A stretch of DNA of 40,922 nucleotides from NCBI GenBank assembly GCA_944324265.1, contig CALUVS010000021.1:1-40922 (forward strand). Reading direction: 5' to 3'. The notes below the pieces were generated by a model. It had not been told where the DNA came from and did no database searches. It saw only the letters and a program-made list of their open reading frames with translations. The stretch is from an uncultured Traorella sp. Its GTDB lineage: Bacteria > Bacillota_I > Bacilli_A > Erysipelotrichales > Erysipelotrichaceae. The translations under genes and the position numbers were made by a program. This document shows, piece after piece, positions 37,068-40,872 of the stretch; position 1 is the first letter of the stretch, and every line of letters starts with the position of its first letter.

Positions 37068-38762
37068 TTATAGAGCCGTGTCGTCAACACTTTCCAAATA
37101 AGCTTTGGCAGAATCCATGCATTCCTGCAATCCGCCATCCATAAATGGTGATTTTAAGTGAGAGGCTTCAAGCAGCTGCAAGAATGATTTTGTACCGCCC
37201 AATTTGCATAATGTCAGATAATCAGACCAAGCCTGCGGATCTTTTTTCTGTGTGCGTTCCCAGAACTGCAGAGCACATACCTGAGCCAATGTATAGTCAA
37301 TGTAATAGAACGGACTTGTAAAGATATGTCCCTGACGGAACCAATATCCTCCTCTTTCCAAGAAATCACAATCATCATAATTCTTATATGGAAGATACAT
37401 TTTTTCCAATCGGCGCCATTCTGCTTTTCTTTCATCTGGTGTCAGATCTGGATGATTATACACAATGTGCTGGAAATGATCGACTGCAATGCCATAAGGA
37501 ATAAACTTCACAGCAGAACTTAAATGCAGATAATGATATTTCTCTGTATCTTTTCCAAAGAATTCCTTTGACCATGGCCAAGTAATAAATTCCATGCTCA
37601 TGGAATGAATCTCACAAGACTCATAAGTCGGAAATTCAATTTCCGGAATACCGGCTTCTCTTGACTGATACACCTGGAAGGCGTGTCCGGCCTCATGTGT
37701 GAGCACGTCGACGTCACCGCTTGTTCCATTGAAGTTGGAGAAGATAAATGGAGCTTCATAATCCTGAATATACGTGCAGTAGCCGCCGCTGGCCTTATTC
37801 GGCTTGCTGACAAGATCCAGCAAATGATTATTGACCATCAGATCAAAGAACTGTCCTGTTTCATCACTCAATTCATGGTACATTTTCTGAGCCTTGGCTA
37901 CTAATTGTTCCGGTGTGCCGATAGGAGCAGGATTGCCTGATTCAAATTCACAATTCAGATCATAGAAATGCAGCTGATCCAATCCCAAACGAATGCGCTG
38001 CTTTTCACTGAGTTCATTCGCTAAAGGCACAACATCCTTCAATACCTGACGGCGATAATTATCCACCATCGCTTCATTGTAATCAAAGCGATTCATACGG
38101 ACATATCCCAATTCAGTATAGTTCTTAAAGCCAAGCTTTTTGGCCATTTTATCCCGCACGTGCACCAAATCATCATAAATGCGGTCAAATTCTTTTTCAT
38201 GTTCTTCAAAATACTGCACATGTGCATAAGAAGCTCTTCTGCGCAGATCACGATCCTTGGACTGTGTCAAAGCAGATAAACCGGCTAAATTATAAGTCTT
38301 GCCGTCAAATTCAATTTTCGCAGAAGCAATCAATTTCTGATATTCACTGGCCAGTTTATTTTCCAACTGCAGATCCTCCATGATCACTTCATCAAAGCAT
38401 TTCAATTCATTTTCAATCAATTGGAAAAAAGTAGATGGAATCCGTTCTTCCAATTGTTTTCTTAAAGGTGATTCTAAGATTGTTCGATAAAACTGATTAT
38501 TGCATTGCTGGTAATATGGACCATTTTCATCCCAATAATCATTTTCTTTAACATAGAACTCATCACTTGTATCAATCGTATAACGCAGAGAAGCCAAGGC
38601 CATCATGGATGACAGATGACCGCGGAATTGATTGATTTCCTTAAATAAGACCATGAATTCGTCAGCATCCTGACAAGCTTTCATCTTTTCCTCATACAAG
38701 GCATATTGCTTCTGAACCTCACTCAGTTCAGGACGTTCATATTTAAATTCTTCAAATTTCAT
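37068..38762 (-). CDS. pepF: M3-family oligoendopeptidase
   Basis: This 564-residue cytosolic zinc metallopeptidase cleaves short peptides. The zinc-binding HExxH is in DVLTHEAGHAFQVYQS, and the third ligand Glu lies in the downstream FPTYESCEIHSMSMEFI. The C-terminal GHIFTSPFYYIDYTLAQVCA is typical of the M3 oligoendopeptidase F subgroup. Length is normal. The ATG follows TGGAGGATC, and a strong terminator closes the gene, so it is a single-gene unit. Confidence 0.93.
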   Translation of the reverse strand: MKFEEFKYERPELSEVQKQYALYEEKMKACQDADEFMVLFKEINQFRGHLSSMMALASLRYTIDTSDEFYVKENDYWDENGPYYQQCNNQFYRTILESPLRKQLEERIPSTFFQLIENELKCFDEVIMEDLQLENKLASEYQKLIASAKIEFDGKTYNLAGLSALTQSKDRDLRRRASYAHVQYFEEHEKEFDRIYDDLVHVRDKMAKKLGFKNYTELGYVRMNRFDYNEAMVDNYRRQVLKDVVPLANELSEKQRIRLGLDQLHFYDLNCEFESGNPAPIGTPEQLVAKAQKMYHELSDETGQFFDLMVNNHLLDLVSKPNKASGGYCTYIQDYEAPFIFSNFNGTSGDVDVLTHEAGHAFQVYQSREAGIPEIEFPTYESCEIHSMSMEFITWPWSKEFFGKDTEKYHYLHLSSAVKFIPYGIAVDHFQHIVYNHPDLTPDERKAEWRRLEKMYLPYKNYDDCDFLERGGYWFRQGHIFTSPFYYIDYTLAQVCALQFWERTQKKDPQAWSDYLTLCKLGGTKSFLQLLEASHLKSPFMDGGLQECMDSAKAYLESVDDTAL

Positions 38763-39438: not shown

Positions 39439-40665
39439 TTATGAGTCATAAATAAATGCCAGTATTTCTTTTTCTTTTTCAATAAACATATATTTGTTTT
39501 TGACATCATTGATCTGGTCATACAAAGAAAGAATAATTTCTGTATAGAAAAACAATCGTTCATAATCTTTTTCTTTTGCATAATAATCATAGATCTTATT
39601 TGCTTTTTCAATGACTTTGGCTGAAGAAATAAATTGTTTCTTGCTGATCAGCTGCCAAAATTCCAATTCTATTTTTAAGGAACCTTTCAATTCCAATTCT
39701 TTTGCAATCAGAAGCCAATAACGGAATTTCTCTAAATCATGAATGTAATAATATACATACAAATAATATAAGATAGTATCTTCATTGTTTTCTTCCAATG
39801 CAGATGCCAGATCTAAAGCCTGCAGTGCTTTTGTATAATTCCCATCAAAAATACTGTAGATTGCAATTTCTCGATAAATACGTGCAATTTCTGCAGGCGG
39901 AAGATTCATAGAAAGTGCACTGCAGACACATTTCTCATACAATTCAACCGCATAAGCATAGCGATGCTCGCAGGCACAGATATGAGCCTGATGCAGATTG
40001 CATTCATGAACACGCAGAAAAGCTCCATATTCAATAAAAGTACGTTTGGCTTTTTCAATCAACGAACTGGCTTCCAACAGCTGATATTCATCAATCCATA
40101 TAAATATCAGCTGATATTGTGCAATACTCTGTATTTTCTCATCCAAGCTGTTTGCAATCACCTGCATAAGCAATTCCTTTGCCTGTACCAAATTCTTTCT
40201 TTCATATAAGCTTTTCGCTTTATATATCTGATAAATATGATAAGCTCTTCTATCAAAATCAATGTTTTTCAGATTCCGATCATCCAATACCTTTTCATTG
40301 GCATTCATTACCTCAAAAGCATATTTCATCACAAAGGTCAAATAATGATATTTGGAATCCAATGCATTTTCATACAAATAATTCACTTGATCCGCTAATT
40401 CTGTAATATTTAAATTACCATAAAACATCTTTGAATAAAAAGACTCAAAAAGATCTGAAATCTCTTGATCCTTCAATGTATCATCAAACAAATTAACCCC
40501 TAATACTTGTTCTAATTTTTCTTTATATTCCTGTTTCGGAACTGCCTGTCCTTTTTCGATTTCAGATATTCTTTGAAATGGAATACCTGTAATTTCAGAA
40601 AGTGTTTTTAATGTATATCCTTTCTGCTTTCTTATAATACGAAATTGTTTATAAATCTGATCCAT
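39439..40665 (-). CDS. XRE-type regulator with TPR-like C-terminal domain
   Basis: This 408-residue protein has an N-terminal HTH of the XRE/Cro type, residues 5-62 (FRIIRKQKGYTLKTLSEITG, then FQRISEIEKGQ). About 330 residues of helical repeats rich in Tyr, Leu and Ala follow. Segments such as QYQLIFIWIDEYQLLEASSL and REIAIYSIFDGNYTKALQAL show the TPR spacing. HTH plus TPR is the architecture of peptide-sensing RRNPP regulators (Rgg, PlcR, PrgX). Its own ribosome binding site is weak (AGGG). The start lies inside a 28-codon frame with a strong site, so translation is probably coupled to that peptide gene. Confidence 0.82.
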   Translation of the reverse strand: MDQIYKQFRIIRKQKGYTLKTLSEITGIPFQRISEIEKGQAVPKQEYKEKLEQVLGVNLFDDTLKDQEISDLFESFYSKMFYGNLNITELADQVNYLYENALDSKYHYLTFVMKYAFEVMNANEKVLDDRNLKNIDFDRRAYHIYQIYKAKSLYERKNLVQAKELLMQVIANSLDEKIQSIAQYQLIFIWIDEYQLLEASSLIEKAKRTFIEYGAFLRVHECNLHQAHICACEHRYAYAVELYEKCVCSALSMNLPPAEIARIYREIAIYSIFDGNYTKALQALDLASALEENNEDTILYYLYVYYYIHDLEKFRYWLLIAKELELKGSLKIELEFWQLISKKQFISSAKVIEKANKIYDYYAKEKDYERLFFYTEIILSLYDQINDVKNKYMFIEKEKEILAFIYDS

Positions 40666-40735
40666 ATCCCTGTAACTTTAAAAACCCCTGACAGAACAAA
40701 CTAAGTATAAAGAAAAACATCATCACCCTATTCAT
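40649..40735 (-). CDS. 28-residue hydrophobic peptide overlapping the XRE-TPR regulator
   Basis: A 28-codon frame starts at 40735 and stops at 40649-40651. AGGAGG (40745-40750) is placed 9 nt before the ATG. The product has one arginine near the start, a strongly hydrophobic core MMFFFILSLFC and a more polar tail QGFLKLQGYGSDL. This is the layout of exported pro-peptides read by RRNPP regulators. It overlaps the regulator's first 17 bases in another frame. Alternatives are a leader peptide that only couples translation, or a small membrane peptide. No homologue was searched. Confidence 0.55.
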   Translation of the reverse strand: MNRVMMFFFILSLFCQGFLKLQGYGSDL

Positions 40736-40834
40736 ATATTCAGCCCTCCTAAAATATACTTCTATGATCATCCCTAAAAATTAAACCATCAATAATAATA
40801 TTCTGTTTTATTTTATTCCTTTTTTCTTACTATA

Positions 40835-40872
40835 TTTTAACTATATCCTTAACTTTTAACGATTTGTATAAC
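40835..40872 (-). repeat. 19-bp tandem direct repeat, candidate operator
   Basis: Two adjacent 19-bp units on the minus strand (40854-40872 and 40835-40853) share the frame GTTA-N8-GTTAAAA and match at 14 of 19 positions. They lie about 100 bp upstream of the peptide gene. The paired GTTA boxes, 12 bp apart, suggest a site for a dimeric regulator, possibly the XRE-TPR protein itself. No promoter could be placed firmly between repeat and gene. Confidence 0.45.

Follow-up and report, generated by a model that had tools for sequence, protein, structure and literature searches.

Near one end of a contig from an uncultured Traorella sp., a frame of only 28 codons runs into the start of a gene for an XRE-TPR regulator. 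This locus raises the question of whether the short frame is a gene and, if it is, whether its product may serve as the propeptide of a signal sensed by the regulator, as in RRNPP systems. A sequence-only reading had proposed such a module, comprising a peptide gene with a perfect AGGAGG, an overlapping HTH-TPR regulator with a weak ribosome binding site, a tandem operator upstream and a lipoprotein gene downstream. We analyzed the whole contig (G000:C21; 40,922 nt, hereafter the window), and the positions of its relevant features are collected in Table 1.

Table 1. Features of the peptide-regulator locus in the window.
Feature	Position	Strand	Basis or remark
28-aa peptide gene	40649..40735	-	ATG at 40735, stop 40649-40651; C60-like position and tail
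Peptide hydrophobic leader, residues 1-15 (MNRVMMFFFILSLFC)	40691..40735	-	Hydropathy
Peptide C-terminal tail KLQGYGSDL, candidate mature signal	40652..40678	-	Aligns with C60 tail DPQGIDHEKPGL
Shine-Dalgarno sequence (perfect AGGAGG) of the peptide gene	40745..40750	-	9 nt before ATG
XRE-TPR (RRNPP-type) regulator, 408 aa	39439..40665	-	Pfam, profile, predicted fold
Regulator HTH domain (HTH_3), residues 9-59	40489..40641	-	Pfam match, E 2.9e-10
Regulator TPR superhelix, residues 64-407	39445..40476	-	Predicted structure; Z 26 vs Rap-peptide complex
Putative lipoprotein gene, 189 aa	38847..39416	-	22 nt past regulator stop
Presumed promoter region, from IS end to peptide	40736..40846	-	111 bp
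Insertion-sequence (IS) end, runs off contig end	40847..40922	.	Repeated at C81, C14 and C13 edges

The peptide frame (product MNRVMMFFFILSLFCQGFLKLQGYGSDL) and its Shine-Dalgarno (SD) sequence are present as described; the frame overlaps the regulator ORF by 17 nt, and the regulator start possesses a weak SD of its own (ACAGGGAT-ATG). The downstream lipoprotein gene was likewise found; its ORF begins MKKRLVLSLLFLCMSSACTSS... and has its own AGGAGG. Sites in which AGGAGG is followed after 5-10 nt by ATG occur eight times in the window, and the other seven all begin long, genuine-looking ORFs, while a third-order Markov model predicts 0.57 such ORFs of 20-60 aa for the whole window, both strands included. 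We infer from these two observations that the frame is translated. The leader of its product reaches a hydropathy of 2.8 over 11 residues (2.1-3.3 among the leaders of the family described below); judged by hydropathy, a short ORF with an export-type signal thus adjoins the regulator. No curated families matching the peptide were found.

The earlier assignment of the regulator to the RRNPP type is well supported. Pfam reports HTH_3 and TPR matches, and a profile built from 24 homologues matches NprR (positions 74-401, E 8e-15) and also Rap105. The best structural matches of the AlphaFold2 model (pLDDT 91.6 over the whole protein, pTM 0.86) are Rap-peptide complexes (Z 25-26), NprR (Z 23-24) and AimR (Z 19-22). 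Since other TPR proteins, e.g. LGN, come next at Z about 21, the fold by itself does not prove function; the full-length coverage and the HTH domain lend extra weight to the assignment. The protein thus combines an N-terminal HTH with a C-terminal TPR region of the Rap/NprR/PlcR/AimR fold. Position 266 is Asn in 20 of the 24 homologues and Glu in the window regulator, and position 269, commonly Trp, is Ile. By analogy with known RRNPP receptors, the conserved Asn at 266 may be a peptide contact.

Seven copies of the regulator are encoded in the genome, three of them (in the window, on C60 and on C24) with a seemingly intact HTH and frame. The copy on C7 contains an in-frame stop, and three others (one on C63 and two on C77, one of which runs off its contig) match only from about position 126 on. 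The window regulator groups with that of C60 as its sister (support 1.0); the two share 46% identity, with dN of 0.46 and dS of 1.54, a comparison that averages over their entire divergence.

A search with the regulator produced matches in 89 of 311 Erysipelotrichales genomes, some of the weaker ones covering the HTH only. In about 30 related systems of this order, a homologous regulator is preceded by a short ORF that has an SD and encodes a hydrophobic leader; these ORFs generally lie at -20 to +45 bp from the regulator start, usually abutting or overlapping it. Peptides of the full form are about 52-66 aa long and consist of a hydrophobic leader, a Cys/His-rich core and a tail of 11-14 residues. 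The core, of the type CTHxHxExCG...CTHxC (CTHVHTEECGxxGxNCTHxC-like), occurs in most family peptides. Full forms are encoded on C60 and C24 and in Traorella massiliensis, another Traorella, Dielma fastidiosa (four pairs) and other Erysipelotrichales; the named hosts came from peptide alignment, and a scan of named genomes with the window regulator alone gave no matches. Nearly all core-bearing peptides detected are followed directly by a homologous regulator (that of L067 was recognized only with a wider profile). Some more distant homologues are preceded, at the same place, by peptides with other, mostly Cys-containing cores (L101/L154/L165; L164; L191/L202; L200/L205), and distant homologues mostly have no leader-peptide ORF, either upstream or downstream. 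Loci L175, L151 and L168 pass the leader filter or nearly do so, yet are unlike the family in appearance and were set aside.

Several individual loci deserve mention. Two homologous regulators, only one of them with a leader peptide gene, stand side by side in L114:3400-6062 (convergent) and L111:2714-5361 (tandem). In L112:2672-4721 (G177), an inserted ORF resembling an IS200/IS605-type transposase interrupts the regulator. A large ORF of Acetivibrio ethanolgignens (L058:3174-7055), apparently a surface protein, contains a tandem CxHxHxxxCG motif near its N-terminus, resembling a multiplied peptide core.

How does the window peptide compare with this family? The nearest paralogue, on C60, encodes a 55-aa peptide, which has the full leader-core-tail form and a predicted structure (pLDDT 72) comprising a leader helix, two short strands and a disordered tail. 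The two share the SD, the leader, the tail and near-identical DNA around the stop codon (TTATAAACAAT), and the window peptide is shorter by some 25 core codons. The core C-x-H-x-H-x3-C-G...C-x-H is thus absent, but the window pair retains the leader, the tail, the overlap, the position and a homologous receptor. Sequences this short can be aligned in more than one way, so the core may have been scrambled or replaced instead of cleanly deleted.

Tails vary across the family; besides KLQGYGSDL, VDPQGIDHEKPGL is a further example. Of 29 peptides, 15 contain a pattern [VI]xP[LYFKAQ] located 10-15 residues from the end; when the last 16 residues are shuffled, the mean is 0.42 and the maximum 4 in 2000 trials. 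The pattern also occurs where the core is of another kind (L101, L154, L200, L205). Because the expression was chosen after viewing the tails, and because the peptides are relatives of one another, we regard the pattern as support and not as proof. The window tail does not match it.

In several relatives, a palindrome is found 68-85 bp ahead of the start of the peptide gene: AAATTCACGTGAATTT in L098, TTCACGTGAA in L093, TTCCTAAGGAA on C60, TTGTGACGTAACA and TGTATCGAAACA/TGTATCGATACA in Dielma, TGGGACGTCCCA in L100 and TTCAGCCGAAAA in L101. L100 has no clear peptide, and its palindrome lies further upstream of the regulator. Each palindrome reappears after the regulator, often at the stop codon, suggesting that each regulator controls the operon of its own peptide as well as the following operon. 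An automated search for shared operators returned none at many loci, partly owing to short downstream sequence. After five of the regulator copies of the window's genome (L002, L003, L005, L006 and L007) there is a similar promoter-like stretch with an SD (e.g. AACAAGGAGGATAAACC), preceding ORFs that are very short or odd (e.g. MNK, MDID).

In the presumed promoter region of the window, neither a palindromic operator nor, at the scan threshold, a sigma-70 match on the same strand was found. The C60 promoter contains TTTTCCTAAGGAAAA; the C60 operator matches the window only at chance level. The 19-bp tandem operator reported by the sequence-only reading was rejected. Its two units agree at 12 of their 19 positions, and most of the upstream unit falls within the IS end; a repeat search detected no direct repeat there, TRF gave no more than a weak period-11 array, and in 11% of cases shuffled versions of the region are just as self-similar (at any period of 15-24). 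The IS end itself, occupying the last 76 bases of the contig, terminates at the same base (...AGTTAAGG) in C81, C14 and C13, where it coincides with contig edges and the DNA beyond differs.

Downstream of the regulator, the lipoprotein gene is likely part of the same transcript and a candidate target. As a conserved partner it was rejected, one weak relative having been found among 41 genomes searched. Two genes past the regulator lies a gene for an oligoendopeptidase F-like (M3-family) protein (37068-38762); it was not retained as a functional partner, its upstream neighbours being different in other members of the genus. A peptide-import system is plausible, as the genome contains four matches to PF08352, candidates for OppD/F-type ATPases, although this domain is common and does not indicate the substrate. 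Downstream of the C24 pair (L093:2607-5608) lie genes for a large membrane-type protein, an ABC ATPase and a 109-aa protein of secreted appearance, possibly a bacteriocin-type locus. In NCBIfam, this ATPase best matches the lactococcin-972 export subfamily, scoring 233 bits where the cut-off is 255, so bacteriocin-type targets are possible for the family.

Taken together, these observations suggest that the locus is probably a member of a seemingly undescribed, Erysipelotrichales-specific branch of RRNPP systems with the propeptide upstream, and that the window copy is derived, core-less and possibly decaying. The window peptide itself is likely a propeptide. The proposal of a cognate upstream propeptide translationally coupled to its receptor gains support from relatives, which have an exported-looking peptide gene at the same place, and from the tail and overlap that align with those of C60. 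We hypothesize that the strong SD drives synthesis of the 28-aa propeptide, and that ribosomes completing it would then feed the overlapping, weakly initiated regulator start. The hydrophobic leader would export the peptide, and the C-terminal tail (about KLQGYGSDL) would be released and re-imported by an Opp permease. By binding in the TPR groove, the tail could alter the control that the regulator exerts on its own operon, including the lipoprotein gene. The usual propeptide of the family would add a Cys/His hairpin core between leader and tail, which the window copy is without. The missing core, the missing operator and the Asn-to-Glu replacement together suggest that the window copy may be rewired or decaying. 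A more specific form of this hypothesis, which we put forward tentatively as possible rather than probable, holds that in the undescribed branch the structured Cys/His core may gate release or export (e.g. by redox state or metal), that translation is coupled, and that the window represents a natural deletion of the core.

The window pair could instead be a decaying relic, incapable of signaling even if translated, its core deleted, its operator lost and an IS nearby. Loss of the core between a leader and a tail that still align with C60 would fit such decay, as would the absent operator, the N266E and W269I replacements, the IS end at a distance of 111 bp and the broken or HTH-less state of sister copies. 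However, neither frame is disrupted, the peptide gene has a perfect SD, the regulator model folds confidently and, against C60, dN is much lower than dS, albeit as an average over the whole divergence; on balance we consider a dead locus unlikely, though it is the alternative to be taken most seriously.

More doubtful is the possibility that the upstream peptides are secreted effectors, bacteriocin-like or metal-binding Cys/His peptides controlled by the regulator without being its ligands. The Cys/His core with its predicted hairpin, the C24 ABC ATPase falling just under the cut-off of the lactococcin-972 export subfamily and the recurrence of the motif in tandem in a large surface-like protein all point in this direction. 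Nevertheless, the peptide immediately adjoins a receptor of RRNPP fold throughout the family, the tail pattern persists where the core differs, and the window peptide retains a leader and a tail with no core, and we regard an effector role as improbable. Still less credit can be given to a regulatory leader ORF, in which the act of translation would matter (through coupling or attenuation) and the encoded sequence would not: the strong SD and the overlap with a weakly initiated regulator agree with it, but relatives preserve amino-acid features (leader, core and tail) and not just an ORF. Finally, a chance ORF, to which the shortness of the frame and its lack of a database family might hint, is very hard to reconcile with a perfect and correctly spaced SD, with an expectation of 0.57 such ORFs for the entire window and with a place, leader and stop that are the same as in the C60 peptide.

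If the locus indeed belongs to an RRNPP branch of its own, its position among described systems is of interest. To our knowledge, neither NprX nor any other known RRNPP propeptide has a Cys/His core. NprR of Bacillus, the best natural full-length match of the TPR profile, shares the combination of HTH and TPR. Rap proteins of Bacillus and its phages, which lack an HTH, have the closest predicted TPR fold and an adjacent exported propeptide. AimR resembles the window regulator in HTH and TPR fold and in its adjacent propeptide, but AimR-AimP is phage-encoded with the peptide downstream, while a phage or plasmid origin of the window family was rejected, no relative being present in the scanned viral contigs or plasmids. 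Also close are the class-I Cys/His propeptide pairs identified in this analysis in Traorella, Dielma and other Erysipelotrichales, having a homologous regulator, the same peptide place, a leader and a variable tail; they differ from the window in the core CTHxHxExCGxxGxNCTHxC and the palindromic operator, both absent here.

The layout was previously said to differ from the familiar downstream or divergent ones. This holds in relation to NprR-NprX, PlcR-PapR and AimR-AimP, where the propeptide is downstream; in the window, a lipoprotein gene follows the regulator, and the peptide lies upstream and overlaps it. NprX-type and phr genes are located downstream of their receptors according to the text of PMC9765709 (mBio 2022), but the same text already states that RRNPP propeptides sit immediately upstream or downstream of the receptor, so an upstream position as such is not new. 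Erysipelotrichaceae do not appear in the main text of PMC9765709 or of PMC10075063 (RRNPP_detector), whose supplements may list some pairs. Our search of the literature found nothing linking RRNPP systems with Erysipelotrichaceae or Dielma.

Should the proposed branch be real, it would provide tractable peptide-receptor pairs in gut bacteria, with readable operators and candidate targets that include a bacteriocin-type export locus. It would also add a propeptide architecture with a Cys/His core. The core-less pair of the window would then be a natural experiment on the importance of this core, showing which parts of the system are dispensable.
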